NCBI RefSeq assembly: GCF_008329525.1
Contig: NZ_NPKQ01000005.1
Coordinates: 186,001 to 250,000 of the forward strand
DNA: 64,000 nucleotides
Origin: Tardiphaga sp. P9-11
GTDB taxonomy: Bacteria > Pseudomonadota > Alphaproteobacteria > Rhizobiales > Xanthobacteraceae
Direction of reading: 5' to 3'
In this document: positions 39,104 to 56,070 of the stretch, piece by piece
How the letters are laid out: the number at the start of each line of letters is the position of its first letter
How positions within the stretch are numbered: the stretch's first letter is position 1
Notes under the pieces: generated by a model
The model's database searches: none
The model's input: the letters and a program-made list of their open reading frames with translations, nothing else
What the model was told of the DNA's origin: nothing
Position numbers and translations under genes: made by a program

Positions 39104-39118
39104 GATGATGATCCATCC

Positions 39119-41130: not shown

Positions 41131-41205
41131 AGCCTTGCTCCTGGCAGCTTGAGGCTGGCCCGCTGGCGGACGTCCATAGAAGACACCAGTTTGAGATGGC
41201 TTGTT

Positions 41206-41219
41206 TTGATCTAACGCAA
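41206..41219. promoter_or_regulatory. FixK box 1 (Usp unit / CBS gene)
   Basis: TTGA-TCTAAC-GCAA matches TTG[A/C]-N6-[T/G]CAA exactly. At the usual class II distance (-41.5) it would give a leftward transcript start near 41171, leaving a 41-nt leader before the Usp gene. Rightward it would start near 41254, leaving 72 nt before the CBS gene. It could serve both. Confidence 0.75.
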
Positions 41220-41325
41220 GATTGTCCGGACACGGGCGCGCTATCGGTCGGGCAATCGATCAATCGCGAAAGCGGTTCGCATCTTGGGTCGTCTGATAAA
41301 GGCGACATAAGCGAGGATGATGATC

Positions 41326-41784
41326 ATGAAGGTCTCTGACATCATGCGAAGTTCCTTCGCTGTTATTGCTCCCACGAAGCTCGTTCTCGAAGCTGCCAAC
41401 ATTCTGCTGGAGACCAACCAGAGGGTGCTCCCCGTGGTCGACCACGATGGGGCGATCATTGGAGTTGTTTCAGAAGGAGATTTCCTTCACCGGGCTGAGC
41501 TGGATGTGCAGCCGCGTCCGGGAAATTGGCTGGAGGAGTTTGTTGGCGTGGTAGAAAATATGCCGGCAACGCGCCGGATGACCGGGCGAACTGTCGGAGA
41601 GATCATGACCCGTATAGCAGTATGCATCGATGCGGATGCCACTGTGGACGAGGCCGTCGCGCTCATGGATATTCATCACGTTGCGCAGGTGCCAGTAACA
41701 TGCGGGACCAGTATCGTCGGTCTCGTTAGCCGAACCGAACTATTGGCAGCATTCATCCGCGCAGTCAGCGAGGATCAGATCTAG
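41326..41784 (+). CDS. CBS-pair protein
   Basis: 152 residues from the ATG at 41326 (GCGAGG upstream; three ATGs lie in a row and an earlier one at 41317 adds three residues). CBS 1: VSDIMRSSFAVIAPTKLVLE, VLPVVDHDG, GVVSEGDFLHR. CBS 2: VGEIMTRIAVCIDADATVDE, QVPVTCG, GLVSRTELLAA. There is no other domain, so it probably works as a free adenine-nucleotide sensor or as a subunit. Divergent from the Usp unit with a FixK box between; convergent with the DUF2892 gene. Confidence 0.9.
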   Translation: MKVSDIMRSSFAVIAPTKLVLEAANILLETNQRVLPVVDHDGAIIGVVSEGDFLHRAELDVQPRPGNWLEEFVGVVENMPATRRMTGRTVGEIMTRIAVCIDADATVDEAVALMDIHHVAQVPVTCGTSIVGLVSRTELLAAFIRAVSEDQI

Positions 41785-41820
41785 CGATCGATGAGCGCGG
41801 TGACGCCGGATACGCTCCCG

Positions 41821-42036
41821 TTAGACCATGCGGTCTGACTTATCTCGCGAGCTGACCTTGAATACATCGTAAAGCGGACAATAGGAGAGGGCTGCTGTGC
41901 CCACCAGCACCACTCCGAGCAGTCCGAGAAGTGGCCATCCTGGCATCAGCTGGCCATCCTTGACGACGTAAGCAAGCAGCGCCAAGCCAATAAAAATACG
42001 GATGAACTGATCGAGACGGCCGATATTGCGTTTCAT
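41821..42036 (-). CDS. DUF2892 (YgaP-like) inner-membrane protein
   Basis: 71 residues from the ATG at 42036, which has an excellent GGAGAAGGAC ribosome site; upstream open frame is not protein-like. The sequence MKRNIGRLDQFIRIFIGLAL, then PGWPLLGLLGVVLVGTAALS and the final CPLYDVF are diagnostic of DUF2892, the membrane hairpin found at the end of the rhodanese YgaP. Here the rhodanese part is absent. A FixK box lies 59 bp upstream of the start, giving a predicted 24-nt leader, so the gene is probably monocistronic and micro-oxically induced. Confidence 0.88.
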   Translation of the reverse strand: MKRNIGRLDQFIRIFIGLALLAYVVKDGQLMPGWPLLGLLGVVLVGTAALSYCPLYDVFKVSSRDKSDRMV

Positions 42037-42094
42037 TGTCCTTCTCCATGCGTTGTTATCGAAACGACAATGACTGCTTGGGCTGTGGCTTGCG

Positions 42095-42108
42095 TTGATC
42101 CTGCGCAA
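42095..42108 (-). promoter_or_regulatory. FixK box 2 (DUF2892 gene)
   Basis: TTGA-TCCTGC-GCAA is a perfect match to the FixK consensus. Class II geometry puts the leftward start near 42060, 24 nt before the DUF2892 ATG. It lies between that gene and the end of the 90-residue membrane protein gene and serves only the former. Confidence 0.78.
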
Positions 42109-42201
42109 ACCGTGTTCAACTCGTCTTCTAGCGCAGAGACGGAAAAGATCCTGTCCGGCAGAAAGCGCCAAACGCTTTGCGGCCTCCACTGCGATACATT
42201 T

Positions 42202-42474
42202 CTATCCAGAGTTCCGGGGGCGTTTCGGCAGGTACCGCGTGGCGATCAAGGCAATCAACCCGAGAGCCGACATGAATGCGACGGCGGTAGCCAAATACAT
42301 CAGAATCGTAAGCGCGTACGCTCCTTGAAATCGCCAGGTCGATTGCGTTGCCTCGCCAGAGGCCAGCGGTAGTATGTCAGAAAAGTAGGTCTGGAATAGG
42401 ATCAGCAGCAGCACAGCCAAGGCGGCGGATGCCACCGTTAACAGCGTCAGGCGAGGAATCATGGCCGTCTCCAT
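42202..42474 (-). CDS. Small membrane protein, unknown
   Basis: 90 residues with two strong membrane helices: about 8-29 (RLTLLTVASAALAVLLLILF) and 52-78 (ALTILMYLATAVAFMSALGL, then IALIATRYL). It ends in a basic tail (KRPRNSG), so both ends are probably cytoplasmic. It lies 65 bp behind the CHAD gene on the same strand and may be the last member of the CBS-kinase-CHAD unit. An ATG four codons in (MIPRL) is an equally possible start. No family recognised. Confidence 0.6.
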   Translation of the reverse strand: METAMIPRLTLLTVASAALAVLLLILFQTYFSDILPLASGEATQSTWRFQGAYALTILMYLATAVAFMSALGLIALIATRYLPKRPRNSG

Positions 42475-42539
42475 CTTAGAGCCGATTATTCGCGATGGTC
42501 GGTGCTCCGTCTATTCAGGAGAAACACTTAGGTGGCTTC

Positions 42540-43364
42540 TCAAGAGAAGCGATCGAGCGCTTTGCGGGTCTTCCGCAACAGCTTGTTTCTGCGCTTCTTA
42601 AATGAGGGCATGCCGGTCGTGCCAATCTCGCGCCGAACCCGACGCATATCGCGCAGGTCGCCTAAGGCGCTTTGAATCTGGCGCGCAGCGTTAGCTTCTT
42701 TCTGGTATTTCCGGGAGTGGACGATGCCGAGGTCGGAAAGGGCCTCGATCATATACCGGAATCGCTTCGCCAAAATGCGGATGCGATGTTGGCGACCAGT
42801 CGCGGACACTTGTTTATTCCACCGCGCGAGCCGGTGGGACCACTGCTTCAGTCGATGCGAGGCATAACTTTCTAGCGAGGCCTGGCGCAATTTGCCGACG
42901 GCGGCCTCTTTGGAGGACCTCCATGGTCCACGACCGACCCAGTTCCTGAGTGCCGCGAGTAAACGTCGATAGCGCTTGGATACCAAGGCTCGCGCCACGC
43001 GGGCATGACCATCGGCTGCCTGTCTGGCGACATCGCGCTGCCTATCCTGATTGAGGGGAGTAGCGGACTGCATTCTGGCATAAGCGAGCGTTACGTCGCT
43101 GTTCCGTGCCGCGCCGAGGATTTTGTTGAGCCAGGAAATCTCCTGTTTGATATCGCTCCAGGCCTCATCCTCGACCATTGCCGAGAAAAAGTTTTGAGCG
43201 GCACGAAGTCTGGTGAGCGCCATACGCAGGCGGTGGATGCCTTCGGCATTACCTAAGCGTGCGGAATGGTGGTTTTTCCGGATGCTATCGAGGCATGCAT
43301 ACGCAATTCGTTGAAATCCGCGTTCGGAGTTCAGGGGGTGGCTCGCGTCTTGACCGGTCCCCAT
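42540..43364 (-). CDS. CHAD-domain protein
   Basis: 274 residues, almost all one CHAD domain: paired helical repeats with conserved basic residues (GIHRLRMALTRLRAAQNFF near 42-60, QHRIRILAKRFRYMIEALSD near 195-215). CHAD domains bind inorganic polyphosphate and target proteins to polyphosphate granules. The protein is strongly basic, as expected. It starts 3 bp after the stop of the two-domain kinase gene, so the pair is co-translated. Polyphosphate accumulation accompanies stress and oxygen limitation, which suits the CBS/Usp context, but the link is inferred. Confidence 0.85.
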   Translation of the reverse strand: MGTGQDASHPLNSERGFQRIAYACLDSIRKNHHSARLGNAEGIHRLRMALTRLRAAQNFFSAMVEDEAWSDIKQEISWLNKILGAARNSDVTLAYARMQSATPLNQDRQRDVARQAADGHARVARALVSKRYRRLLAALRNWVGRGPWRSSKEAAVGKLRQASLESYASHRLKQWSHRLARWNKQVSATGRQHRIRILAKRFRYMIEALSDLGIVHSRKYQKEANAARQIQSALGDLRDMRRVRREIGTTGMPSFKKRRNKLLRKTRKALDRFS

Positions 43365-43367
43365 GGG

Positions 43368-44777
43368 TCAACCGTGCGGAGCGACGAGCGGAGTGAGATG
43401 AGGGGCCGCGTTCGCATGCGTTTCCTCGGGCGTACCACCCGCATCGATCAAGGGCCATTCGATGTGATCTGTGTCCAAATGCTCCTGCATGTGCGCAACA
43501 GCGGTTGACGCGTCGGAGGCGTCGTTGTGTCGCCCGGCGATACGGTTGAGGCGAACCGACAGGTCCGCGTGCAGGAACAGGCCGATATGGAGTACAGTCC
43601 GTGGTTCGGCCAGGGTGAACGCGCGCCGTTCCTCCTGCCGCAGGAACGCAGCGTCGAGCACGACGGCGTGGCCGTGCGAGGCAATGCGGCCGGCGGACGA
43701 GATCAGTTCATCATAAACCTGCTCAGTCACCTCCGCTGCATAGGCCGATCCGGGCAGGCGGCTATGTTCGTGGGCGCCGAACATCGCCTTGCGAATGACG
43801 TCGGAGCGAACAACCACGGCGCCCGGTGCAGGACCGAGGGACGGCGCAACCGCGCGTGCAAGAACGCTCTTGCCCGTGCCGGATAGTCCACCGATCGCGA
43901 TCATTCCACCGGGCGGCGGCCTAATAAGCTGGATCGCCAGTTCGAAATACCGTTTGGCTTCTGCCGCAACCTGCTGATCCCCGCCGGATTGTTCCGCTCT
44001 TGTAAACAGCACGTGCGCCCTGATCGCGGCGCGAATGGATAGAAAAAGCGGGAATACGGCTAGTGCGGCAAGGTGCGAGGGATCGCCTTGTGTGAGATAG
44101 CGATTGAACAGGACGTTCGCGGCATTTCGTTGACCGTGGTGGATCAGATCCATGAGCACGAAGCCGAGATCGTACAATACATCGGTGGTTGCTATCGCAG
44201 GATCGAACTCTATGGCGTCGAACAGCACCGGTTTTCCGTCGATGAGCGTGATGTTTCCCAAATGCAGGTCGCCGTGGCAGCGTCGTACGAAGCCGGCATC
44301 GGCCCGGCGTTCCAGGTACGTTCTCTGGGCGTTGCTTGCAGCGTGGCTATCATGATTTGCACGGTTGTGCGCGTTTAGTATCGCGTCACTGATCTGTTCA
44401 GCCAGCTCGGGCGTGATGTCGGCCTTCGCCGCGATGCGATCCAAGCCTGCGGTCTCATCGAACCGCTTCATCTCCACCGCCCATTCCACGGGCGATCCCT
44501 CTCCGTCGATGGAGAACCCTTCCGAATGATGTGTGATAGGGATCACACGTCGGTAGAGGTCGGGCGCAAACGGCATATTGACTTCAAGTTCCGCCTGACA
44601 GGCGATCCGTCGCTTCGCAAGGGTTGAATAGTCGAGAAACGGTAGCCGAATGGCGCGCTTGATCTTCAGGACGCGTTCTTTACCGAGAAAAATGATTGAT
44701 GCATGGGTGTCGACGCGTTTCATTCCGGCCTCGCTAAGACCAACAAATGCGAGTACCGCGTCCTGTTGGAAAGCCAC
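43368..44777 (-). CDS. APH-like kinase fused to AAA/P-loop kinase (COG2187 + COG0645)
   Basis: 469 residues from the GTG at 44777, chosen because AAGGAG lies 9 nt upstream and the family typically begins near QDAVLAF; the frame is open to 44882, which would overlap the previous gene. The N-terminal half is an aminoglycoside-phosphotransferase-like kinase (TRVDTHASIIFLG-like start KRVDTHASIIFLGKERVLKI, catalytic HGDLHLGN, metal-binding DAIEFD). The C-terminal half is a P-loop kinase (GGLSGTGKSVLAR). Substrates of this family are not known. It lies in a minus-strand unit after a CBS-BON gene and before CHAD, and all three may be read from the FixK box at 45759. Confidence 0.87.
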   Translation of the reverse strand: MAFQQDAVLAFVGLSEAGMKRVDTHASIIFLGKERVLKIKRAIRLPFLDYSTLAKRRIACQAELEVNMPFAPDLYRRVIPITHHSEGFSIDGEGSPVEWAVEMKRFDETAGLDRIAAKADITPELAEQISDAILNAHNRANHDSHAASNAQRTYLERRADAGFVRRCHGDLHLGNITLIDGKPVLFDAIEFDPAIATTDVLYDLGFVLMDLIHHGQRNAANVLFNRYLTQGDPSHLAALAVFPLFLSIRAAIRAHVLFTRAEQSGGDQQVAAEAKRYFELAIQLIRPPPGGMIAIGGLSGTGKSVLARAVAPSLGPAPGAVVVRSDVIRKAMFGAHEHSRLPGSAYAAEVTEQVYDELISSAGRIASHGHAVVLDAAFLRQEERRAFTLAEPRTVLHIGLFLHADLSVRLNRIAGRHNDASDASTAVAHMQEHLDTDHIEWPLIDAGGTPEETHANAAPHLTPLVAPHG

Positions 44778-44844
44778 CAGATCATTCTCCTTGGTTGGCA
44801 CGGCAGCAGTCGGGAAACCGGAAAGCGGCCGTGGATCCAATTGC

Positions 44845-45531
44845 TCAGGTGCCGAAAACCGGCATTTCGAGCAAGTGGTCATTGACCAGAGTCACGCCGG
44901 GGTGCAGCTCTGCTGCAACGCGAATGGCATTGCGCTCCTCGTCAGATTCGACACCACCCCATATGTCGACGATGCCGTTGCTAACAGTGATGTTCAAGTG
45001 GTGCGGGTGAGCCCATGGCAGCGTCTTCAACTTGCCCATGAGTGCGTCTCGGATCGTTTCGTCGGTGAGCGTCACCTCGATCTCGGGCCGAGCGCCCGCG
45101 ACCAGTTGGACGATATTCGAACGACTGACAATGCCGACGAGTGTACCCTCGGTATCCACGATCGGAACGCGCTTGATGTGGTTCTCCTCGAGCAGGCCGG
45201 CAATCTCGTAAACCTCGGTGTCCGGTGCTGCGGTTATGACATCGCGAGACATGATATCCTGAATCTTCACGCTGTGCGACTTGACGTAATCCCCTGCCAC
45301 TGTGTGATTTCCAGCAAGCATATGGACCCACCACGAATAGTGGTTCTCGGTACCGGCTTCGACGCGGCGCAGCAGATCCCCTTCCGTCACGATTCCGGCC
45401 GGCTTGCCGGAACCGTCCACCACGGGTAACGAGCTGATCTGCTTTTCGACCAGAAGCTTCGCCACATCGCGAACCGTTGCTGTCAATCCGATCGTGATGA
45501 CTGGAGAAATCATTAGATCGCGTGCCTTCAT
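44845..45531 (-). CDS. CBS-pair protein with C-terminal BON domain
   Basis: 228 residues from the ATG at 45531 (GAGGAG upstream); 71 further open codons lie in the leader and are not protein-like. CBS 1: ARDLMISPVITIGLTATVRD, SSLPVVDGSG, GIVTEGDLLRR. CBS 2: IQDIMSRDVITAAPDTEVYE, KRVPIVDTEG, GIVSRSNIVQL. BON at about 155-225 (IRDALMGKLKTL ... NGIVDIWGGV). It has the same architecture as the protein at 39119-39841 and is probably a paralogue. It leads the unit with the two-domain kinase and the CHAD gene. Confidence 0.9.
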   Translation of the reverse strand: MKARDLMISPVITIGLTATVRDVAKLLVEKQISSLPVVDGSGKPAGIVTEGDLLRRVEAGTENHYSWWVHMLAGNHTVAGDYVKSHSVKIQDIMSRDVITAAPDTEVYEIAGLLEENHIKRVPIVDTEGTLVGIVSRSNIVQLVAGARPEIEVTLTDETIRDALMGKLKTLPWAHPHHLNITVSNGIVDIWGGVESDEERNAIRVAAELHPGVTLVNDHLLEMPVFGT

Positions 45532-45758
45532 GGGACGTTCTCCTCTCGTGGAACTTCGCAAGATGATGACTGATGGGGTATTCGGGATCTCGGCATCCGC
45601 AAATGCATCGCTCATCTGGAACGCAGCCAGCATGGCAGTTCGCGGTGTACTATCTTTGATCTTCCTCAAAATCGTATTTGGGACGGAGGCAAGCTTATCC
45701 TTCGCGGTAAGGCATTGGCGTGAAGCCGGAACACCAAAAGGCAACGTAGGTCGCTTGT

Positions 45759-45772
45759 TTGACTTTGCGCAA
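45759..45772. promoter_or_regulatory. FixK box 3 (divergent CBS genes)
   Basis: TTGA-CTTTGC-GCAA matches the consensus exactly. Predicted starts: rightward near 45807, giving a 132-nt leader before the CBS gene at 45939; leftward near 45724, giving a 193-nt leader before the CBS-BON gene. The longer leaders make direction uncertain. Confidence 0.68.
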
Positions 45773-45938
45773 AGTCGATCCTCGGAAGTTGGCTATGATC
45801 AGCACACCAGACAGACGCTGACAAAATTCAAACTGTTGATGGCGCGGTTCGATGCTCCATTCAGCAATGAACACGTGGGCTGCCCGGCGCGCTGCGGTGT
45901 CCCGTGTGACGCCAGACCAAACGCGGAGGAGCGAACAG

Positions 45939-46415
45939 ATGTACGAGTTTCTGGAAGAGACAGTCGGGGCGGCCATGACAACGCCCTGCAAGCACGTTGC
46001 TCCGGAATTGACCGTCGGTGATCTGCACCGACTATTCGATGCAGATCACGTTGAGGCGTTTCCGGTCGTCCGGAATGGCCATGTCATCGGGATCGTGTCG
46101 AAGTTTGATGCTTTGCGACCGTTCGCTTTTGGTACGGCGGAGATTGTCCCGCATTATGACGACGTCATGGGAACAGTTGTGGAGGAGATCATGTCCCACA
46201 ATGTGATCTCTGTGACCGCCGATGCGCGTCTCACGCGTGTCCTACAGACCATGGTGCAGCACAAGATCAAGAGTGTCCCGGTGCTCGATCACGAGAAAAG
46301 ACTGGTTGGCATCGTCGCGCGAGAGGATGTTTTCCGCGCACTGCGAAGATGCACGAAGGGCGAGCAAGCATCGCAGCGCGCGGCGAGAGTAGTGGCATGT
46401 CAACATATCGACTGA
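45939..46415 (+). CDS. CBS-pair protein coupled to a Pat-like acetyltransferase
   Basis: 158 residues from the ATG at 45939 (GGAGGAG upstream). CBS 1: VGAAMTTPCKHVAPELTVGD, AFPVVRNG, GIVSKFDALR. CBS 2: VEEIMSHNVISVTADARLTR, KSVPVLDHEK, GIVAREDVFRAL. The 3' end overlaps the start of the acyl-CoA synthetase/acetyltransferase gene by 19 bp, so the two are made together. An energy-sensing CBS protein controlling or marking the output of a protein acetyltransferase is a reasonable hypothesis but is not shown by sequence. Confidence 0.9.
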   Translation: MYEFLEETVGAAMTTPCKHVAPELTVGDLHRLFDADHVEAFPVVRNGHVIGIVSKFDALRPFAFGTAEIVPHYDDVMGTVVEEIMSHNVISVTADARLTRVLQTMVQHKIKSVPVLDHEKRLVGIVAREDVFRALRRCTKGEQASQRAARVVACQHID

Positions 46416-49102
46416 ACAAGCTGTTGGCCCCCGGGTCGATAGCGCTGGTCGGTGGCAGCACGCGCGCGAGTTCGTTGGGCACTGCCGTCATGCGTAACAT
46501 TCGTGCGGCAGAGTTCGCTGGCGAATTTGCCGTCGTCAACCCCGTTCACCGTGAGATCGATGGCCATCAGACATACAATTCGATCGATGCGCTGCCGTTT
46601 ATCCCGGATCTGGTCGTCGTCTCTGCGCCGGCCGCGGCAGTTCCCGGCATCATTGTCGAGGCTGCCGCGAGGGGTGTTGCGGGCGCGGTCATTCTCAGCG
46701 CGGGCCTCGGTCATGGTGAGCACTCCGTTGCCGCGGCAGCGCTTAGTGCTGCGCGGAAGGCGGGCTTGCGGTTGATCGGGCCGAACTGCTTCGGTCTGCT
46801 TTTGCCAGGCTGCCGCCTCAATGCGAGCTTCGCCGCCCATATGCCGCGGGACGGGTCATTGGCCCTCATTTCTCAGTCAGGCGCGATCGTAGCCGGAATG
46901 GTGGACTGGGCGGCGAAACGCTCCGTAGGATTCTCGGGTATTGTATCCGTCGGTGACCAGCTCGATGTCGATGTTGCCGATTGTCTCGATTTTTTCGCTG
47001 AGGATTCACAAACCCGCGCGATCCTGCTTTATTTAGAGGCCATCCCCGACGCACGAAAATTCATGTCAGCCGCACGCGCAGCTGCACGGGTGAAACCTGT
47101 CGTAGTGGTCAAGGCTGGCCGGATGGCACAGGGCGCAAAGGCGGCAGCGACGCATACTGGCGCGCTGGCCGGAGCGGATGCCGTTTATGACGCCGCCTTC
47201 CGCCGTGCGGGTCTGCTGCGCGTGTTCGACCTCCGGGAGCTTTTCGATTGCGCTGAGGTGCTTGCGGGGGGCAATGAGCCGCGCGGAAAGCGACTTGCCA
47301 TTCTCACCAACGGAGGAGGGCTCGGTATTCTTGCCGTGGACCGGCTGGTGGAGCTCGGCGGCGTTGTTGCCGACGTAGGCAGTGCGGCCCTTGCTGCGCT
47401 AAATGATGGGCTACGCCGAGGGTGGTCGGGATCGAACCCGGTCGACATCGGCGGAGATGCGGATTCGGACGCCTATCGCGCCTCGCTAGGAGCGCTGCTC
47501 GATGATGCCGACAATGACGCCGTCCTGGTGATGAACGTCCAGACCGCGATAGCTGACCCCGTCGCCATCGCGAGGGCGGTTTCGGACGCAGTGGCCGTGC
47601 ACCGCGAACGGTTCGAGCCGTCCTCCAAACCGGTGTTGGCCGCCTTCATCGGCGCCGATCCGAAGGTCACGGCACTTCTTGAGTCGGCAGCCATCCCCAA
47701 TTTTTTGACCGAGGACGACGCAATACGCGCGTTTATGTATCGTGTGCATCATCATGACACGATGCAGGCATTGATGGCGACGCCACCCAGCGACATGGAG
47801 ACCGTCAAGGCTGATCGTGTGACGGCGCAGCGCATTCTAGAAGATGCGATGAGGGACGGGCGGACATGGTTGGATCCATTGGAGATCGCGACTATCTTTG
47901 AGGCTTATACGATCCCGATTGTGCCGACCCGTAAAGCCTCGAACATGAATGAGGCCATCTCTCTAGCGGAAGGCTTCTTCCGACAGGGCTACGCAGTGGC
48001 CATGAAGATCCTGTCACCCGATATCGTGCACAAGTCAGATGTCGGCGGGGTGGCACTCGGTCTGCACGACGCAGACGCGGTGCGTCTCGCTTACGCGACG
48101 ATGATGGAATCGGCGACAATCAAATGTCCACAGGCTCGGATCGCCGGCGTCATCCTGCAGCCGATGATCGTGCGCCCGCATGCGCGCGAGTTGATCGCGG
48201 GACTCGCTGACGATCCGACGTTCGGACCTGTGGTGGTCTTCGGACATGGTGGTACCGCGGTCGAAATCATCAACGACAAAGCATTGGCGCTGCCACCGCT
48301 GGATATGCAATTGGCGGAAGATCTGGTGCAACGCACCGCAATCGCTCGGCAATTAGCCGCTTATCGTGATGTTGCCGCTGTCAAGGTGGATGCCGTGCAA
48401 CTGACGCTGGTCAAGCTTTCACAGATGGCTGTGGACCTGCCGCTTATCAGTGGGCTCGACATAAATCCGCTGCTCGCGGACGAGAATGGTGTGCTTGCGC
48501 TGGATGCCCGGATTGCCGTGGCGCCGCCGCACAGGATGTTTCCTGGTCAGACGCGTCTGGCCGTTCGGCCTTATCCCGCTGCATGGCAGCACGACGTCGT
48601 TCTTCGCGGCGGCGCGACGATCCTTTTACGTCCAGTGAAACCGGAGGACGAGGTCGGCATTCACCATCTCCTGACGCATACCGATGCCCGAGATCTTCAT
48701 TCTCGGTTTCTCGGTACCATCAAGCAATTTCCGCACACCTTTGTCGCCCGCCTGACGCAACTCGACTACGCGCGAGCAATGGCCTTCGCAGCGGTCGCCC
48801 CCGAGAGCGGCGAAATTCTTGGAGTGGCTCGCCTACACTCCGATTCTATGTACAGGATGGCGGAGTATGCGGTTCTGGTGCGCTCCGATATGAAGGGACA
48901 GGGCCTCGGCTGGACCTTGATGACTGAACTGATCCGTTACGCCAGAAGCGAGGGCCTTATCGAATTGCACGGCGACGTACTGCAATCCAATGACGAGATG
49001 CTGCAAATGTGCCGGGCTTTGGGATTTCAAGTTTCGAGTGATCCGGAGGATCCAGCGATCGCTCTTGTCTCGCTGGATTTGAACGCGCCAACCGTTGCTT
49101 AG
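46397..49102 (+). CDS. Pat-like protein: NDP-forming acyl-CoA synthetase domain fused to GNAT acetyltransferase
   Basis: 901 residues from the ATG at 46397. The CoA-binding Rossmann domain is at about 8-130 (APGSIALVGGSTRASSLGTA). Succinyl-CoA-synthetase-like flavodoxin domains follow (LIGPNCFGLL, LISQSGAIVAGMVDWA). An ATP-grasp domain covers about 480-690 (YAVAMKILSPDIVHKSDVGG, VVVFGHGGTAVEI, GLDINPLLA). The GNAT domain is C-terminal, about 735-895 (ILLRPVKPEDE, EYAVLVRSDMKGQGLGWTLM). This is the order of Salmonella Pat, which acetylates lysines such as that of acetyl-CoA synthetase using acetyl-CoA. The phosphoglycohistidine GPNCFG region looks intact, which leaves residual ligase activity open. 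It overlaps the CBS gene in front and ends tail-to-tail with 49099. Confidence 0.9.
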   Translation: MSTYRLNKLLAPGSIALVGGSTRASSLGTAVMRNIRAAEFAGEFAVVNPVHREIDGHQTYNSIDALPFIPDLVVVSAPAAAVPGIIVEAAARGVAGAVILSAGLGHGEHSVAAAALSAARKAGLRLIGPNCFGLLLPGCRLNASFAAHMPRDGSLALISQSGAIVAGMVDWAAKRSVGFSGIVSVGDQLDVDVADCLDFFAEDSQTRAILLYLEAIPDARKFMSAARAAARVKPVVVVKAGRMAQGAKAAATHTGALAGADAVYDAAFRRAGLLRVFDLRELFDCAEVLAGGNEPRGKRLAILTNGGGLGILAVDRLVELGGVVADVGSAALAALNDGLRRGWSGSNPVDIGGDADSDAYRASLGALLDDADNDAVLVMNVQTAIADPVAIARAVSDAVAVHRERFEPSSKPVLAAFIGADPKVTALLESAAIPNFLTEDDAIRAFMYRVHHHDTMQALMATPPSDMETVKADRVTAQRILEDAMRDGRTWLDPLEIATIFEAYTIPIVPTRKASNMNEAISLAEGFFRQGYAVAMKILSPDIVHKSDVGGVALGLHDADAVRLAYATMMESATIKCPQARIAGVILQPMIVRPHARELIAGLADDPTFGPVVVFGHGGTAVEIINDKALALPPLDMQLAEDLVQRTAIARQLAAYRDVAAVKVDAVQLTLVKLSQMAVDLPLISGLDINPLLADENGVLALDARIAVAPPHRMFPGQTRLAVRPYPAAWQHDVVLRGGATILLRPVKPEDEVGIHHLLTHTDARDLHSRFLGTIKQFPHTFVARLTQLDYARAMAFAAVAPESGEILGVARLHSDSMYRMAEYAVLVRSDMKGQGLGWTLMTELIRYARSEGLIELHGDVLQSNDEMLQMCRALGFQVSSDPEDPAIALVSLDLNAPTVA

Positions 49103-49509
49103 AGCGGCGTGACGGAAGCGACCCGGTAGGTGTGTGTCGCATTTGCTTCGCGCAACGACACGTATTCGCCCGGCCGGAAAGCTTCCGACTCAAAATGAAA
49201 TCCGGCTTCGTCCGGTGCGGCTCCGGCGACATCGTAATGAAAGGCCCAGCTTCCACCCGGCCGATGCACGAGATGGCCGCGGATATCGTCTCCGCCTGGA
49301 CGCAGGCGTGTGACGCGGCAGGCTTCGCGGTGCGACTTCCAAGCAGTGGCATCGATCCGTTCGCCGCTATCGAGAGGCGCGAGCAGCACATATCCGATCT
49401 CGGAACTTCCCTCCGGATGCTCGGTGTTACGGGCAAGTTCGAGGCGGATCCTGCGAAACATCGCAGGGAGATCGCTGTTGCGAATGGGTTGAAAAGTGCC
49501 GTTCTGCAT
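49099..49509 (-). CDS. Hypothetical protein, soluble
   Basis: 136 residues, no signal peptide or membrane segment. Segments FRRIRLELARNTEHPEGSSE, IGYVLLAPLDSGERIDATAW and FHFESEAFRPGEYVSLREAN look beta-rich; EYVSLRE with the closing THTYRVASV resembles a small barrel. No family recognised. It lies 33 bp behind the 83-residue gene and overlaps the end of the Pat-like gene by 4 bp on the other strand. As the second gene of a unit starting next to two FixK boxes, it is probably induced by low oxygen. Confidence 0.7.
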   Translation of the reverse strand: MQNGTFQPIRNSDLPAMFRRIRLELARNTEHPEGSSEIGYVLLAPLDSGERIDATAWKSHREACRVTRLRPGGDDIRGHLVHRPGGSWAFHYDVAGAAPDEAGFHFESEAFRPGEYVSLREANATHTYRVASVTPL

Positions 49510-49542
49510 GGCGTGTCCTTTGAATCCTGGTGATGTGAATGG

Positions 49543-49794
49543 TCAGAGTGGTTGGCGACGCATTTCGCTAGCCCTCGTGCGAGGCCTCGCGCGCAATGCC
49601 GCGCCGACAAGGATGCCGATCATGAGAGCGGAAACCAGTGTCGAGAATCCACGCTCGATCATCTCTCTTTCAAGAACGGAACGTTTGCGGGACAGCGCCC
49701 TGTCCAGCGCCGACCAACGATCTCCGATGCCTGAAGCGAGCCTGCAGCCTCCCGGCTTGAAATGGCGGTGCGTTCCAATGTGCTCCCACATCAT
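49543..49794 (-). CDS. Small single-pass membrane protein
   Basis: 83 residues. A polar, His/Arg-rich N-terminus (WEHIGTHRHFKPGGCR) is followed by a charged helix and one membrane span at about 50-68 (FSTLVSALMIGILVGAALRA), then a basic tail. No family recognised. It is the first gene leftward of the two FixK boxes at 49838 and 49881; the second would give a 52-nt leader for it. Confidence 0.6.
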   Translation of the reverse strand: MMWEHIGTHRHFKPGGCRLASGIGDRWSALDRALSRKRSVLEREMIERGFSTLVSALMIGILVGAALRARPRTRASEMRRQPL

Positions 49795-49837
49795 GCTCTC
49801 CTAGAAGGGCAGATTATGCCGGCCCCACTCAAGCATC

Positions 49838-49851
49838 TTGATGCACATCAA
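49838..49851. promoter_or_regulatory. FixK box 4 (Mla operon / small membrane gene)
   Basis: TTGA-TGCACA-TCAA is a perfect match and fully symmetric in its outer half-sites. Rightward class II spacing gives a start near 49886 and a 42-nt leader for the permease gene. Leftward it would leave only about 9 nt. It therefore fits the rightward operon better. Confidence 0.8.
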
Positions 49852-49880
49852 AACCGGAAACGGATTCGAGAAGACGCCTC

Positions 49881-49894
49881 TTGAGATTGATCAA
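49881..49894. promoter_or_regulatory. FixK box 5 (divergent small membrane gene)
   Basis: TTGA-GATTGA-TCAA is a perfect match. Leftward class II spacing gives a start near 49846 and a 52-nt leader for the gene at 49794. Rightward the start would fall on the permease ATG itself. Boxes 4 and 5 thus appear interleaved, each lying within the transcript start region of the other promoter. Confidence 0.75.
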
Positions 49895-49927
49895 AGCAGA
49901 CAGGTGTGGATCCTTCTACATGCGCAT

Positions 49928-51079
49928 ATGCGAAACGAGACGCACGCATCGGATCTGCTTCCGACTTTGACGACACAGGCACGTGACCCGCTTTCGCTTC
50001 GTGCGGGCGGTGCTTGGACCGTCGAGCATGCCGAGCTGATGGAACATCTCTGCCAAGACGTGACGCCGAATGTCCGCGGTGCGGTCGGCGCCGAACTCGA
50101 TCTGGCTGCGGTCACTGCGCTGGATACGTCTGGCGCCTGGCTTCTCGAGAAGCTGTCGCGCGCGCCGATCCATGGCGACGGCATCAAGGTTCGTTATCCC
50201 TCGGACACGCTCGTTGGGCTGCTTACCCAAGCCCACAAGCTCAACAGGTGCGCATCGAGCCCCGAACCACGCAAGGCTTGGCCGCTCGCGCAGCTTGATC
50301 GAGCCACCGACTATATGGCGGGCGTATCCCATGATGCCGTCGCGTTCTTGCATCTGCTGGGGGCCGTCTGTACGAGCCTTGGACGCATCATTCTGCATCC
50401 TTCGCGACTGCGTTTGACCTCGACCGTGTACCAGCTGTTTCGCGTGGGTTGGCAGGCGATCCCGATCATGGTGCTCATCACGTTTTTGATCGGCGCGATC
50501 ATCGCCCAGCAGGGCATCTTTCATTTCCGACGGTTTGGCGCTGAATCCTACGTGGTCGACATGGTCGGCATTCTGGTGATGCGCGAAATTGGCGTTCTGA
50601 TCGTTGCCATCATGGTCGCTGGGCGTTCCGGGAGCGCCTATACAGCTGAAATCGGTGCCATGAAGATGCGGGAGGAAATCGACGCCCTAATCACGATGGA
50701 GCGCGATCCTATCGAGGTGCTGATCGTCCCGCGCGTGCTGGCGTTGGTATTGGCACTCCCGATCCTGGCGTTCCTTGGTTCACTGGCTGCGCTCTATGGC
50801 GGAGGCCTGATCGCCTGGCTGTATGGCGGCATGAGCCCCGCGATCTTCATCGCGCGTTTGCACGAAGCGGTTTCGGTGACCCATTTTGAGGTCGGCCTGA
50901 TCAAGGCACCGTTCATGGCGCTTGTCATCGGAATTGTGGCCGCAATGGAAGGGCTGCGCGTGAAGGGAAGTGCCGAGTCGCTCGGCCGGCAAACCACAGC
51001 TTCGGTCGTAAAATCGATCTTTCTTGTCATCGTTATCGACGGTGTGTTTGCCGTGTTCTTCGCATCGATCGGGATGTAG
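49928..51079 (+). CDS. MlaE-type permease with N-terminal STAS-like domain
   Basis: 383 residues from the ATG at 49928; the frame is open to 49838, but that part is occupied by the FixK boxes. Residues about 20-105 form a STAS-like domain (LRAGGAWTVEHAELMEHL, AELDLAAVTALDTSGAW), the role played by the separate MlaB in Escherichia coli. Then follows the MlaE permease (QAIPIMVLITFLIGAIIAQQ, AGRSGSAYTAEIGAMKMREE, EIDALITMERDP). It forms the inner-membrane part of an MCE lipid transporter between inner and outer membranes. ATPase and MCE genes follow within 4 and 9 bp. Confidence 0.9.
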   Translation: MRNETHASDLLPTLTTQARDPLSLRAGGAWTVEHAELMEHLCQDVTPNVRGAVGAELDLAAVTALDTSGAWLLEKLSRAPIHGDGIKVRYPSDTLVGLLTQAHKLNRCASSPEPRKAWPLAQLDRATDYMAGVSHDAVAFLHLLGAVCTSLGRIILHPSRLRLTSTVYQLFRVGWQAIPIMVLITFLIGAIIAQQGIFHFRRFGAESYVVDMVGILVMREIGVLIVAIMVAGRSGSAYTAEIGAMKMREEIDALITMERDPIEVLIVPRVLALVLALPILAFLGSLAALYGGGLIAWLYGGMSPAIFIARLHEAVSVTHFEVGLIKAPFMALVIGIVAAMEGLRVKGSAESLGRQTTASVVKSIFLVIVIDGVFAVFFASIGM

Positions 51080-51082
51080 GAC

Positions 51083-51832
51083 ATGGGCGAAAATAATGCG
51101 GCAATCCAGATCGACGATCTCGTTGTCGGCTTCGGCCGTCACGTCGTCATCGATCGGCTGTCGCTAACGGTGCGGCGCGGCGAGACGATGGGCCTCGTCG
51201 GCGCCTCGGGCGGCGGAAAATCGGTGCTGATGCGCGCGATGATAGGACTGCTGCCGAAGCGAGGCGGTGAGATACGCATCGATCCACAAATCGAGCGACG
51301 CGCGGTCAATCGCCTCGGCGTGCTGTTCCAGCAGGGCGCTCTGTTCTCATCCTTGAACGCGCGGCAAAATGTGCAGTTCCCGCTGCGCGAGAACATCAAT
51401 ATCTCGGATGAATTGCTGGACGAAATCGCCAACGCCAAACTGGAAATGGTGGGGTTGACGCCGGCAGATGGCGAGAAGTTTCCCTCGGAACTGTCGGGTG
51501 GAATGACTAAACGTGTCGCGCTGGCCCGCGCGCTGGCGCTGGACCCAGCCATTTTGTTTCTGGACGAACCGACCTCCGGGCTCGATCCGATTGCTGCCGG
51601 CGAATTCGATGCCCTTATCACTGTTTTGCAGAAGACGCTCGGCCTGACGGTGTTCATGGTTACGCATGACCTGAGCAGTCTCGCTTCGATCTGTAACCGC
51701 GTAGCCGCGCTTGCCGACGGAAAAATCGTTGCTCTCGGCTCCCTCGACGAAGTCCGCGCTTCGGATCATCCATGGGTCAGAAGTTACTTCCACGGCGTTC
51801 GCGCCAAGATGATCCACAGCCCCGGCCAGTAG
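51083..51832 (+). CDS. MlaF-type ABC ATPase of an MCE lipid transporter
   Basis: 249 residues: Walker A GASGGGKS near 40, Q-loop VLFQQGALFSSL, signature LSGGMTKRVALARAL, Walker B ILFLDEPTSGLDP and the switch HDL. SGGMTKRV in place of SGGQ is characteristic of MlaF/Mkl ATPases. It powers the permease encoded 3 bp upstream; the MCE subunit follows 9 bp downstream. Confidence 0.93.
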   Translation: MGENNAAIQIDDLVVGFGRHVVIDRLSLTVRRGETMGLVGASGGGKSVLMRAMIGLLPKRGGEIRIDPQIERRAVNRLGVLFQQGALFSSLNARQNVQFPLRENINISDELLDEIANAKLEMVGLTPADGEKFPSELSGGMTKRVALARALALDPAILFLDEPTSGLDPIAAGEFDALITVLQKTLGLTVFMVTHDLSSLASICNRVAALADGKIVALGSLDEVRASDHPWVRSYFHGVRAKMIHSPGQ

Positions 51833-51841
51833 GAGACGATT

Positions 51842-52945
51842 ATGGAAACGCGCGCGCCCTTTGTAATCGTCGGAGCGTTTGTCCTTGCGGTGATCGTTGG
51901 CGTGTTCGGCTTCGTCTACTGGCTGAACAATGCGGGTGCCGTTGGCCGTCGCGCGACTTACCAGATCGCATTCGAGGGGTCTGTTCCAGGATTACTCACC
52001 GGGGCAGCGGTTCTTTTCAATGGAATCCGTGTCGGCGAGGTGACGTCCCTTCGTCTGGACTCCTCGCATCCCAAGGCGGTCGCTGCGACCGTTGCGGTCG
52101 CCATCGAGACACCCGTCCGGAAAGACACCAAGGTCGGGCTGGATTTCCAGGGGCTCACCGGAGTGCCGGTGGTCGCGCTCGAAGGCGGCAGCGGCACTGC
52201 GCTCGTGACTCCGGGTGATATCCTGCAGGCCGAACCGGGGGCAGGACAGAGCATGACGCAGGCCGCGCGCGACGCGCTTCGTCGGATGGATGCAGTCCTC
52301 TCGCAGAACGCAGATCCACTGCGAGACACCGTTGCAAACCTGAAGATATTTGCAGAAGGGCTTGCGCGCAATACGCCGCGCGTGGACAGCATCCTGGCTG
52401 GACTGGACCGGACCATGGGCGGCAGCCAGGCGCCGCAGGCCAAAGTGACCTATGACCTTGACGCCCCGTTATTTGAGCCCGGACAACCCAGGCTCAAGAC
52501 ACAGATCATTATCGGCGAACCCAGCGCGATTACGAGGTTGCAGACGCAGCGTTTTCTATTTCCGCCGGGAGAGGAGCGGCCCGGCTTTGCGGTCGCGCAA
52601 TGGAGCGACAGCCTGCCGGCCCTGCTTCAGGCAAAGTTGCTGCAGAGCTTCGAGAATTACGACGTCGACCATCCGCCGCTGCGGCCCGACAATGCCGGGC
52701 AGTCCGGCGTCCGGGTGCTGCTGGATCTGCGAAGGTTCGAGATCGATCCCTCGGCCGATGCCAAGGCTGTGATTGTCATGTCAGCGAAAATCCTCGATGA
52801 GTCCAACAAGGTGATCGCCGCGCGGATATTCAGTGCGTCGCAACCGGTCAGCATTATGGATCCAGGCACCGCCGCTGCAGCCTCCAATACGGCGTTCCAG
52901 GCGCTCGCGCGTGAACTGGTGCAGTGGACCGCACAGCAATTATAG
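51842..52945 (+). CDS. MlaD-type MCE protein fused to an ABC auxiliary (PqiC-like) domain
   Basis: 367 residues. A membrane anchor at about 8-30 (FVIVGAFVLAVIVGVFGFVY) is followed by the MCE domain at about 38-115 (YQIAFEGSVPGLLTGAAVLF, GIRVGEVTSLRLD, GLDFQGLTGVPVVALEGG). A helical linker comes next. The C-terminal half, from about 200 (VTYDLDAPLFEPGQPRLKTQ, FAVAQWSDSLPALLQAKLLQ, SFENYD), matches the ABC_trans_aux fold of PqiC-like lipoproteins. Fusion of these in one polypeptide tethers the periplasmic tunnel to its usual outer-membrane partner. No MlaC or MlaA gene is adjacent. Confidence 0.88.
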   Translation: METRAPFVIVGAFVLAVIVGVFGFVYWLNNAGAVGRRATYQIAFEGSVPGLLTGAAVLFNGIRVGEVTSLRLDSSHPKAVAATVAVAIETPVRKDTKVGLDFQGLTGVPVVALEGGSGTALVTPGDILQAEPGAGQSMTQAARDALRRMDAVLSQNADPLRDTVANLKIFAEGLARNTPRVDSILAGLDRTMGGSQAPQAKVTYDLDAPLFEPGQPRLKTQIIIGEPSAITRLQTQRFLFPPGEERPGFAVAQWSDSLPALLQAKLLQSFENYDVDHPPLRPDNAGQSGVRVLLDLRRFEIDPSADAKAVIVMSAKILDESNKVIAARIFSASQPVSIMDPGTAAAASNTAFQALARELVQWTAQQL

Positions 52946-52971
52946 AGGAGCACTAAAGCGGCGCTGCAGCG

Positions 52972-53577
52972 CTAGAGTCCCGCGGTCAGCGCCAGCCGCA
53001 TCAGCTCAGACATGCTCCGTGCACCTGTCTTCGCCATCAGGTTTGCCCGATAGACTTCGACCGTACGCGGGCTGATCCCAAGATCGTGCGCGATCACTTT
53101 GTTGATCTTGCCGGACACCAACCCCTGCAGCACGTCACGCTCGCGCGGCGACAATTCCGCAAGACGTTCATTCGCCTCAGCGCGACCTGCGTCCACCGCG
53201 TCAATCGACCTTGTTGCCAATGCCGACCGGATGGCGGAAAGCAGGACGTCGTCATCGAACGGCTTCTCGATGAAATCAGCTGCGCCCGCTTTCATGGCTT
53301 CGACGGCGAGTGCAACGTCACCATGACCAGTTATGGCGATAACGGGACAAGTGAGGCCGTCCGTCCTGAGCTTGCGCACCAGTTCGAGGCCACTCATGCC
53401 GGGCATGCGGATGTCGGAAATGACGCAATCCGGCGTCGCCTGTCGAATATGGTCCAGAAAGGCTTGTGCAGTTTCATGCGTTCGCACCTTGAATCCATTA
53501 ACGTCCAGCAGGAACGCCAGCGAATCGCGCATGGCCGGATCGTCATCGACAATATCGATCTTAGGTCTATTGTTCAT
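52972..53577 (-). CDS. fixJ: FixJ response regulator
   Basis: 201 residues. The receiver domain (5-118) has the acidic pair Asp11/Asp12, phospho-acceptor Asp55 ([13 protein letters not shown]), Thr in AITGHGD and Lys in EKPFDDD. The LuxR/NarL-type HTH is at about 138-198 ([37 protein letters not shown]). Phosphorylated FixJ activates fixK (and in some species nifA) promoters under low oxygen. It overlaps the 3' end of fixL by 11 bp. Confidence 0.95.
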
Positions 53578-55039
53578 GTCGTGAGACCTGTTCCGCGAAT
53601 GGTAAGGTAAACTGGAAGCGCGTACCGCCGTCAGTCATAGACTCGGCCCAGATGCGCCCGCCATGAGCCTCGATGATCGTTCGACAGATCGATAGGCCGA
53701 CACCCATGCCGTCAGCTTTCGTGCCGACAAAAGGCTGAAAAAGACGATCTCGAACATCTTCTGCAATCCCGTGTCCGGTGTCCGATACCGCGAACAATGC
53801 GGTATCGTCGTTACGACGAACGGTGATGTTGAGCTCGCGTCGTTCCTGCGTCGACATTGATTCGATGGCATTGCGAATGAGATTCAGGGCAACTTGCTGG
53901 ATTTGTATCTTATCGACGACGACGGAGGGCATGTCCGGTTCACTGCGCAAGATGACGTGGATGCCCAGATCCCGCGCACCGAACAATGCAAGTGCCGCAG
54001 CCTCCTCGAGCAATGTGCCGGGATTCTCCAACGTGGCCTGGGTCTCGCCTTTGGCGACAAACTCCCGCAAACGCGCAATGATATCACCGGCGCGCAGCGC
54101 TTGCTGGGCGGCACGGTTCAGCGCTTCCCCAATTCGCGTACGATCCGGCTCCGGTTGCTTCAGCAGAGTTGCGGCGCCTCGCATGTAACTCGTAATGGCA
54201 GACAACGGTTGATTAAGTTCGTGGGCGAGTGAGGATGCCATCTCGCCCATCGCGGTCAATCGCGAAACGTGAACGAGCTCGGACTGGAGCTCCTGCACGC
54301 GTCGCTCCTGCGTCCGCCGTTCGGTGAGGTCGCGGACGAAGCCGGTGAAGAAACGATCATCGCCGACCGTTGCTTCGCCAACGGCGAGCTCCATTGGAAA
54401 CGTGGATCCATCCTTGCGCTCGCCGACGACGATTCGCCCGATCCCTATGATGCGGCGCTCGCCAGTCCGTTTGTAACGAGCAAGATAGCTGTCGTGCTCC
54501 GCGCGATACGGCGACGGCATGAGTGTGGACACGTTTTTCCCTACTGCCTCCTTGACGCTCCAGCCGAACAGCCTCACGGCCGCGGCGCTGAACGAGCGCA
54601 TGATGCCCTGTTCATCAATGACGATCATGGCCTCGGGCACGGTATCGAGGATGGACTGGAGGTGAGCCTGCCGTTCGCGCGCGTGATCGGACTCCTGCAG
54701 CAGCCTGTCGCCCATGAGACCTAAGACCGGGCCGATGACTGAGAAGAAGGAAAGATCAATAAGGTTGGTAGGGTGCAACAGCGGCCCGATGCCGATGGTG
54801 GTCGCGCTGCCAATGATGCAAAGCGCAGTGGCAAAGATCGCAGGGCCGCGTCCGCCCACAAAAGCTGCGATGACCACGACGGGTACATAGATGAGCGTGA
54901 AAGTGCGATCCTCGAAATAATTGTCGAGTAGAATTCGTAGCAGAATAGCCGTCGCAGCCGCGAAAGCGGCCGTGCCGTAGGTGATCAGAATGCGCGCACG
55001 TGTGACCAAACGGTGATATCCTTCGTGGCGCATGCTCAA
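53567..55039 (-). CDS. fixL: FixL oxygen-sensing histidine kinase
   Basis: 490 residues. N-terminal membrane helices occupy about 15-110, as in membrane-bound FixL. The heme PAS domain spans about 125-240. His182 ([12 protein letters not shown]) aligns with the proximal His200 of Bradyrhizobium FixL, with the equivalents of Arg206 (Arg188) and the oxygen-switch Arg220 (Arg202, IIGIGR) at exactly matching spacing. The kinase core has phospho-acceptor His273 ([14 protein letters not shown]), an N box (LIRNAIESM), [10 protein letters not shown] and [12 protein letters not shown]. Oxygen bound to heme shuts the kinase off. A second ATG two codons in is possible. Confidence 0.95.
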
Positions 55040-55175
55040 CTGCGTCCGGCGCCGCCGTCAATGGGTATGTGGCAACATCGGATCTCGCAGCGGTGCCAAG
55101 GTCGAACTTTGCGCCCTTTCAGGGGAGCCGTCGTTGTGCAATGGTGGGTGCCATTCGCCGCAGGGAGATTGCGCC

Positions 55176-55343
55176 GTGGACAAGACCGTGGCCGACCTGA
55201 ACATAGCTCACTTCAAGAGATTGCTGGAAGGCGAGAGCGACGCGGGCAAGAGAGAGATGCTGTTGCGTCTCCTCGCCGAGGAGGAGGCGAAACTGACGCT
55301 CCTGAAAGATATGCCGACGTTGGGCAAGCTCCCTGGAGACTAG
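55176..55343 (+). CDS. Small acidic conserved protein, unknown
   Basis: 55 residues from the GTG at 55176, which has GGGAG 9 nt upstream; the longer open frame before it is Cys/Arg-rich and not protein-like. The sequence VDKTVADLNIAHFKRLLEGE, then KREMLLRLLAEEEAKL, is one amphipathic helical hairpin. Similar short proteins are common in Bradyrhizobium-type genomes (recollection). It is divergent from fixL with 136 bp between. No function can be assigned. Confidence 0.65.
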   Translation: MDKTVADLNIAHFKRLLEGESDAGKREMLLRLLAEEEAKLTLLKDMPTLGKLPGD

Positions 55344-55540
55344 TCGGGCTTTCGCCAGAAACGCCAATGGGTCGGGTCGACCCTGATGACGGCTTTCGTC
55401 TCGGCATGAATCCAGCCGCCAGATATTCTTTGGCACGGAAAGACGAGTGCATGCGGCATCGCGCCTTCAATGACCGCGAGCTCAAGATCGCAGTCTCCGG
55501 GAGCGGAATCGACGTTCTGCCATTGCTGTTCGATCGGCAT
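55340..55540 (-). CDS. Small hypothetical protein
   Basis: 66 residues from the ATG at 55540 (GGGAGC upstream); a longer frame to 55606 adds a Ser/Cys-rich leader without a ribosome site. The segment QQWQNVDSAPGDCDLELAVI followed by EGAMPHALVFPCQRISGGWI and HWRFW resembles small conserved proteins of rhizobia, mostly beta with Trp and Cys residues. It ends tail-to-tail with the 55-residue gene (4-bp overlap) and lies 58 bp behind the phasin gene, so it may share the phasin transcript. Confidence 0.65.
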   Translation of the reverse strand: MPIEQQWQNVDSAPGDCDLELAVIEGAMPHALVFPCQRISGGWIHAETKAVIRVDPTHWRFWRKPD

Positions 55541-55598
55541 CTGCGAGCTCCCGGTGGCGCCGCTTGAGTCGCTTGCGAAGCAAGATGACATCTGAAGA

Positions 55599-55982
55599 CT
55601 AGACACCTTCGGTTGAGGCCGGCGGAGTAGGGACGTCGGTTTCCTTGGTATCGGCTGGTGTGAAGAACTTCATTTCAATCTGTCCCAACGCCCGTGCGCT
55701 CTCCAGAACATAGGTGGCGTCGTCCGCCGCCTTCTTCATCGCGCCTTCGATCCATTGCTCGCAGAGCTTGATCTTCTCGCCGACGGCGGGCGTTCCGCCA
55801 ACCTTGAAGAGCATCTGCCAGGCGTCGTTGGAATCCTGCTGTATCCGTTGCAGCCAGTGCTGGTTGATCTCGCCCAGCTTTTTGCCGAGCGCAGACTGAA
55901 CTGCCGTGGCCTGAATTGCGCCTTGTCTCAGCGCGGCTGCGATCGCAGGTGCACTCTGCGTAGCGCCATTCTGTTCAAGCAT
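55599..55982 (-). CDS. Phasin-family protein
   Basis: 127 residues from the ATG at 55982, which has GGAGG 5 nt upstream (an ATG at 55994 lacks one). The protein is almost entirely helical: LRQGAIQATAVQSALGKKLG, then HWLQRIQQDSNDAWQMLFKV and AMKKAADDATYVLESARALG. This is the phasin pattern of amphipathic helices that coat polyhydroxybutyrate granules. A perfect FixK box is centred 82 bp upstream of the ATG, so expression under oxygen limitation, when PHB stores reducing power, is expected. Confidence 0.8.
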   Translation of the reverse strand: MLEQNGATQSAPAIAAALRQGAIQATAVQSALGKKLGEINQHWLQRIQQDSNDAWQMLFKVGGTPAVGEKIKLCEQWIEGAMKKAADDATYVLESARALGQIEMKFFTPADTKETDVPTPPASTEGV

Positions 55983-56056
55983 TGATGCCTCCATGATTGA
56001 TCCAAAGGCGGATCGTCGATCAATGGGTCATCCTGCGGCAAGGGGCGGTGAATACT

Positions 56057-56070
56057 TTGACGTGCGTCAA
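56057..56070 (-). promoter_or_regulatory. FixK box 6 (phasin gene)
   Basis: TTGA-CGTGCG-TCAA is a perfect, symmetric match. Class II spacing gives a leftward start near 56022 and a 40-nt leader before the phasin ATG at 55982. Confidence 0.8.

Follow-up and report, generated by a model that had tools for sequence, protein, structure and literature searches.

Comparison with Described FixK Regulons

In the available portions of three reports (PMC2908626, PMC6515984, PMC9104804), genes for FixLJ, an ABC/Mla-type transporter, phosphoketolase, CBS proteins, universal stress proteins (Usp) and cytochrome c are described as FixK or FixK2 targets, or as responsive to micro-oxia, with the same promoter box. 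For Bradyrhizobium diazoefficiens, the accessible text of PMC9104804 gives the phosphoketolase gene bll2518, the Usp gene bll4644, the CBS gene blr6074 and others as units with a FixK2 box that are down in a fixK2 mutant, and that of PMC6515984 reports changes in micro-oxia for the MCE/ABC/MlaE-family genes bll6063-bll6065, the GNAT gene bll6068, the Usp gene bll6069 and CBS proteins. The predicted core FixK regulon of Rhodopseudomonas palustris and the Bradyrhizobiaceae comprises FixJ, FixL, ABC transporter parts, phosphoketolase, CBS proteins, cytochrome c and a kinase, and FixK dependence is reported for several RPA genes (PMC2908626, in the part available). Here we describe a 64,000-nucleotide stretch of Tardiphaga sp. 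P9-11 (contig NZ_NPKQ01000005.1, positions 186,001 to 250,000; hereafter the window), in which an island of ∼18 kb combines genes for an oxygen sensor and regulators with others for stress, lipid transport and metabolism, and in which the promoters carry one common type of box, TTG[A/C]-N6-[T/G]CAA (the strict motif).

The interval 41206-56070 is probably an island of FixK type for the response to micro-oxia, in which seven promoter boxes would be FNR/FixK-type sites acting by class II activation, together with a putative FixLJ-FixK cascade. It is a new example of a low-oxygen regulon described before in Bradyrhizobium and Rhodopseudomonas. The regulon drawn in an earlier note on this DNA is not new, most of it having been published for B. 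diazoefficiens and R. palustris. Its concentration, to such an extent, in one patchy island is less usual.

The island resembles the FixLJ-FixK2 regulon of B. diazoefficiens in its box and its kinds of gene, and the core FixK regulon of R. palustris and the Bradyrhizobiaceae in its kinds of gene; genes of USDA 110 and RPA genes were likened by gene kind only. Unlike the situation in B. diazoefficiens, fixLJ, fixK and the target types stand in one island here, whereas the genome's only match to ccoN, a classical FixK target, is on another contig, with a strict box ∼300 bp upstream. Two further differences are that the phosphoketolase gene has no strict box and that the FixK-type protein carries serine at the position of the redox-active Cys183 of FixK2, a redox cysteine that the available part of PMC2908626 places in the FixK proteins of Nitrobacter, Bradyrhizobium and Rhodopseudomonas. 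A parallel by gene kind is also offered by the lxa locus of Burkholderia cenocepacia, a large low-oxygen-activated cluster with many universal stress and metabolic genes. That locus belongs to another bacterial class, and the accessible text, which discusses a FixLJ-controlled FixK in B. dolosa, does not indicate FixLJ inside it (PMC6127331). The portion of PMC10454721 available added nothing further on these genes.

Frequency of the Strict Motif

Each site was counted once, since the strict motif reads alike on both strands. The six exact matches listed in the earlier note (41206, 42095, 45759, 49838, 49881 and 56057) were all recovered, and two more in the interval had been overlooked, at 45656 (intergenic) and at 52587, the latter inside mlaD and probably due to chance. 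In total, 14 strict matches were found in the window, compared with a mean of 4.66 and a maximum of 11 in 100 shuffles, and 396 in the whole genome (6,158,120 bases, 30 contigs), compared with 226 for the reversed motif. From the genome density, 0.96 matches would be expected in 41206-56070, which contains eight (P = 7.4e-6, or ∼0.003 after a multiplicative correction for all such intervals genome-wide).

Twenty stretches of 20 kb from elsewhere in the same genome (400 kb) served as background and yielded 14 strict and 10 reversed-motif matches, with four strict matches in the 61.8 kb left non-coding by a simple gene caller. With such a caller, the island (38449-56300) showed five intergenic matches in 3.5 kb against 0.23 expected (P = 4e-6); in the comparison with intergenic DNA elsewhere that the earlier note had proposed, the island is thus far denser. 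The matches at 49838 and 49881 fall outside these five, as the caller over-extended the mlaE frame, which is open through both boxes. That all the boxes listed lie between genes accordingly holds only if the mlaE start lies downstream of its boxes, which is likely, if unproved.

When a scoring profile built from family sites was applied, the seven promoter boxes gave the top scores in the window, the seventh tying with a site at 28074 at one decimal. Profile sites of at least 14 bits numbered three in the 400-kb background and five in the island; strong sites outside the island are expected for a regulon with targets beyond it. That the boxes merely reflect chance or base composition is a reading to which we attach next to no weight: although it is a short motif, with 6 of its 14 matches in the window outside the interval and some within genes, the reversed-motif control and the conservation in place described below already refute it, and the excess over genome and background and the geometry of the −10 elements likewise rule it out.

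Conservation of the Boxes

The nearest named relative found was Bradyrhizobium sp. NFR13, the acetyltransferase protein of which is 80% identical (the sole locus from that scan). Gene order in NFR13 is much as in the window, and counterparts are present for six of the seven promoter boxes: those of 41206 and 45656 are identical, those of 45759 and 56057 each show a single-base difference, and the 49838/49881 pair persists at a spacing of 42 bases (43 in the window) with different inner bases. The counterpart of 45759 was assigned by its place before the CBS gene, the automatic alignment of 45.5-45.9 kb having missed it. Box 42095 is missing from NFR13, as is its DUF2892 gene; in a locus of another genus (L042), DUF2892 is present with a box in front. 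Three further strict matches in NFR13 lack a counterpart in the window (L001: 2972, 6026 and 8816). The first of these, TTGATTTTGCGCAA, stands between the CBS-BON and cytochrome c genes, where the window has the degenerate sequence TTGATCTCGCGAAG (39870-39890), perhaps a decayed box.

In G151, a genome of the genus to which the window belongs, one divergent promoter contains both the Usp box and, 44 bases from it, the CBS/acetyltransferase box, the latter differing by one base from 45759. The same two boxes are 4,553 bases apart in the window, and the genes between them carry boxes of their own.

From 149 family genomes searched, 20 islands of ∼20 kb were taken among the best-scoring, one per genome; selected by the acetyltransferase gene, they show the makeup of the island and not its frequency. 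These islands contained 119 strict matches and 15 reversed-motif matches, unevenly distributed (a single strict match in locus L050). A box was scored as upstream when it lay at most 400 bp before a gene, and genes too close to the end of a stretch were dropped. By this measure, boxes preceded all mlaE (14/14) and cytochrome genes (12/12) and most CBS-BON genes of the first type (10/14) and 49099-type genes (9/12), followed by kinase-like (7/13), CBS3 (6/11), FixK-like (6/11), Usp (11/26), acetyltransferase (4/20), CHAD (2/11) and FixJ-like genes (2/5) and the one DUF2892 gene (1/1). None preceded mlaF (0/15) or mlaD (0/14), both operon-internal, or the 41317-type CBS gene (0/1). Among the matches listed, FixK-type and acetyltransferase genes were at most 30 kb apart in 45 of the 72 genomes listed for both, including this genome and NFR13.

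Promoter Geometry and Target Genes

The pooled family profile covered 109 rows from related genomes, some boxes being bidirectional, with offsets counted from the box centre in the direction of the gene. The pattern TAnnnT occurred at offset 28 in 18 of the 109 rows and at each of 61 other offsets in at most four; the very small P value of this peak is not to be taken literally, as the rows come from kin and some boxes are used both ways. The −10 peak is 28 bases from the box centre, as predicted for class II activation, which places the box centre at −40.5. In the window, only 45759 (TATGAT) and, leftward, 49838 (TAATCT) have TAnnnT exactly at offset 28. Together, the excess of boxes, their conservation in place, the family counts and the class II −10 spacing strongly support, at the level of sequence, an FNR/FixK-type regulon.

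Approximate leaders were computed from the coordinates, setting the box centre at −40.5 and using the preferred pairing of box and gene. The box TTGATCTAACGCAA (41206..41219), identical in NFR13 and G151, precedes a unit on the minus strand headed by the Usp gene (40303..41130; Pfam; leader ∼42 nucleotides) and continued by genes for a small cytochrome c (39914..40303; weak Pfam match) and the first CBS-BON protein (39119..39841; Pfam); it may perhaps also serve the divergent CBS gene on the plus strand (41317..41784; Pfam). The box TTGATCCTGCGCAA (42095..42108) is assigned to the gene of a YgaP-like/DUF2892 membrane protein (41821..42036, minus strand; Pfam; leader 25 nucleotides), and TTGATCTTCCTCAA (45656..45669) to the second CBS-BON gene (44845..45531, minus strand; Pfam; leader 91 nucleotides). 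On the plus strand, TTGACTTTGCGCAA (45759..45772) precedes a CBS gene (45852..46415; Pfam) that overlaps the gene of an NDP-forming acyl-CoA synthetase fused to a GNAT acetyltransferase (Pat-like; 46397..49102; Pfam, NCBIfam). Its leader is ∼46 nucleotides if the first ATG is assumed, and by codon score the coding start may be at 45939. The box TTGACGTGCGTCAA (56057..56070) is assigned to a phasin-like gene (55599..55994, minus strand; leader 29 nucleotides).

The two boxes of the mla region, TTGATGCACATCAA (49838..49851) and TTGAGATTGATCAA (49881..49894), had been paired in the earlier note with the mla genes and the small leftward gene, respectively. This pairing is probably swapped and was set aside: in the paired mlaE promoters of relatives, each box has a −10-like hexamer on its outer side, resembling TAGAtt left of the left box and TAtgg or TAgaa right of the right box (by eye). 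Thus, 49838 probably serves the small leftward gene (49543..49794, minus strand; no Pfam match; 49% homologue in NFR13), with a leader of ∼10 nucleotides. Box 49881, with the −10-like TACATG at offset 29 (TATCTG in NFR13), probably serves mlaE, which encodes an MlaE-type permease with an N-terminal STAS-like part (49928..51079, plus strand; Pfam, NCBIfam; start uncertain) and is followed on the same strand by genes for an MlaF-type ABC ATPase (51083..51832; Pfam) and an MlaD/MCE protein (51842..52945; Pfam). If 49881 acts at −40.5, the leader is 0 nucleotides and the mlaE transcript would begin at the in-frame ATG at 49928, common to NFR13; a leaderless message is possible. The proposal that five of six boxes fit class II spacing with leaders of 24-72 nucleotides held only partly, as the computed leaders range from 0 to 91 nucleotides.

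Regulators of the Boxed Units

As had been noted before, fixLJ and a FixK-type gene are close neighbors, lying within 17.4 kb. FixJ (52972..53577, minus strand) scored 283.4 bits with the NCBIfam FixJ model NF006900, above the cut-off of 255, which no other of the genome's 61 matches passed. FixL (53567..55039, minus strand; Pfam) has a PAS domain with a histidine that we take to be the haem ligand, followed by HisKA and HATPase domains, and the PAS domain aligns with solved FixL along its length. The whole protein scored 532.9 bits against a cut-off of 850 for rhizobial FixL (NF041777), still its best family.

The FixK-type Crp/Fnr regulator (37688..38449, minus strand) likewise had the FixK equivalog NF050806, a model whose name points to Caulobacter, as its best family, at 223.6 bits against a cut-off of 300. 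Its closest solved chain is FixK2. At the DNA-reading residues 195, 196 and 200 of FixK2, of which 196 and 200 presumably have this role, Leu/Glu/Arg is replaced by Ile/Glu/Arg. The protein has three scattered cysteines in frame and lacks an FNR-like N-terminal cysteine cluster. At the Cys183 position, the best 30 family loci have serine in 25 cases and glycine, threonine and proline in one each, two being unread by the pattern used. The solved FixK2 chain is itself a C183S variant (PMC9104804, available portion), so the aligned letter alone is not a comparison with natural FixK2.

By established knowledge of this cascade, loss of oxygen from the FixL haem would cause FixL to phosphorylate FixJ, and phosphorylated FixJ would raise FixK. 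Dimers of FNR/FixK type would then bind the seven boxes and activate from about −40.5. In this way FixK, alone or with the genome's FNR-type regulator, may turn on the Usp-cytochrome c-CBS unit, DUF2892, the second CBS-BON gene, the CBS and acetyltransferase genes, the Mla-type transporter, the small leftward gene and the phasin-like gene. Control of the boxes by the nearby FixK is what we infer.

Several results weigh against this scheme. No strict box is present before fixL or fixK within the window, nor within 400 bp upstream of any of five family FixL genes, and several boxes in the window have −10 elements that match in part or are one base off. The element CSNAATWT, reported for fixK promoters (FixJ motifs and background from the accessible parts of PMC13327599 and PMC4999443), occurs upstream of fixK both in the window and in NFR13, within a block that is conserved (at about 38478-38520 in the window); across the family, however, it was found in 6 of 29 upstream regions compared with 6 of 30 gene interiors and 128 of 2000 random pieces. 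Being no commoner upstream than inside the gene, it is unsupported as a family-wide FixJ signal. Lastly, when the recognition helix was read in 12 of the genome's 17 Crp-type matches, two other regulators (C25:313 kb, and C12:885 kb beside ccoN) proved to have near-identical helices. Sequence therefore cannot allot the boxes to one regulator, and the earlier claim of control by the island FixK in particular was overstated.

The regulator at C25:313 kb could be the one that mainly serves the boxes, sensing oxygen itself and leaving the island FixK secondary or idle. Its recognition helix, SRQDIADYLGLTIETVSR, almost equals that of the island FixK, and its N terminus carries a cysteine cluster. 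Two strict boxes 25 bases apart (L092:12811-12849) lie within ∼250 bp upstream of its match, which suggests that this FNR-type regulator is itself under FNR/FixK-type control. Furthermore, a more distant FixK/FNR-like gene (39-43%) adjoins the island in several relatives, and FNR, FixK and DNR sites are virtually identical (PMC2908626, in the part available). We nevertheless consider this arrangement unlikely, since fixLJ and a FixK-type gene are inside the island and the published homologues in B. diazoefficiens and R. palustris, so far as the accessible texts go, need FixK2 or FixK; sharing of the boxes would still be compatible with these observations.

The same near-identity of DNR and FixK sites would permit a DNR-type regulator to act at the boxes in response to nitric oxide or some other signal rather than low oxygen; C12:885 kb, without an FNR-like N-terminal cysteine cluster (by eye), would be the candidate. 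This is very improbable given the FixLJ pair in the island and the changes of homologous genes under micro-oxia reported for B. diazoefficiens in the portions available. Low-oxygen control by FixK, alone or with the FNR-type regulator, remains the preferred explanation of the boxes.

Phosphoketolase and the Phasin-like Gene

Phosphoketolase (35113..37536, minus strand; Pfam XFP, NCBIfam phosphoketolase) had been counted as a member of the regulon. As a boxed target in this genome it was rejected, as the gene has no strict box in the window and nothing of at least 8 bits adjoins it among the best profile scores. Boxes were found ∼270 bp before the phosphoketolase match in NFR13 (L091:1561), between the phosphoketolase and acetyltransferase genes in G156 (L127:8523) and, in G155, before a CBS-BON gene standing upstream of phosphoketolase (L126:2490). 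Membership is thus plausible for the family and unproved in this genome. The gap between fixK and phosphoketolase (37540-37690) contains a short CBS-like remnant in one frame (by eye). Given the boxed CBS-BON gene upstream of phosphoketolase in G155, the window gene may have lost its boxed promoter.

The label "phasin" given earlier to the product of 55599..55994 has behind it one weak, indirect link. Searches with Pfam and NCBIfam profiles were negative for a phasin identity, with no match to Phasin_2 or any other Pfam family at E values up to 10. A 26% relative in G097 (E = 4.8e-5) does match Phasin_2 (30.8 bits against a cut-off of 24.9). The single-sequence fold of this small helical protein consisted of two helices with a mean predicted local distance difference test score of 61.8, too poor for a fold search. 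The gene was found in three of 149 family genomes, including this one, and one of the matches was weak.

Composition and History of the Island

From 35 to 56 kb, the genes are, in order: phosphoketolase, the FixK-type regulator, the first CBS-BON protein, cytochrome c, Usp, a CBS protein, DUF2892, a small unassigned protein, a CHAD protein, a kinase-like protein, the second CBS-BON protein, the CBS protein overlapping the acyl-CoA synthetase/GNAT protein, two unassigned genes, MlaE/F/D, FixJ, FixL, small unassigned genes and the phasin-like gene. The acetyltransferase gene was detected at E values up to 1e-200 in 9 of 18 genomes of the genus, four of these, including this one, at no less than 71%. 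The G+C content of the island is 58.6%, while the 20 background stretches average 61.5%. Tentatively, the island may be a portable, self-contained cassette for oxygen limitation that keeps sensor, regulators and boxed promoters together, is patchy in the genus and is rebuilt by gene blocks between boxes; on balance, we regard this as possible rather than probable.

At this compact locus, target genes of a FixK/FNR-type regulator are legible from the sequence, the boxes hold their positions across genera, and a stable core of Mla-type transporter, cytochrome c and CBS-BON protein is indicated. The case raises the questions of why a lipid transporter and a protein acetyltransferase join the response to oxygen limitation and of what the lack of the redox cysteine means for the behavior of a FixK. 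It leaves the accepted view of FixLJ-FixK regulation unchanged.

No tRNA gene that might have served as an insertion site was found within the window. To the right of the island, a DUF882 peptidase-like gene (56299-57981) gave no tblastn match in the ∼2.9 kb past the phasin-like gene of NFR13, and the right flank may differ there. Elsewhere in the window, two 4-kb blocks at 8000-16000 have a G+C content of 53-54%, well under that of the rest, and are probably a foreign segment.

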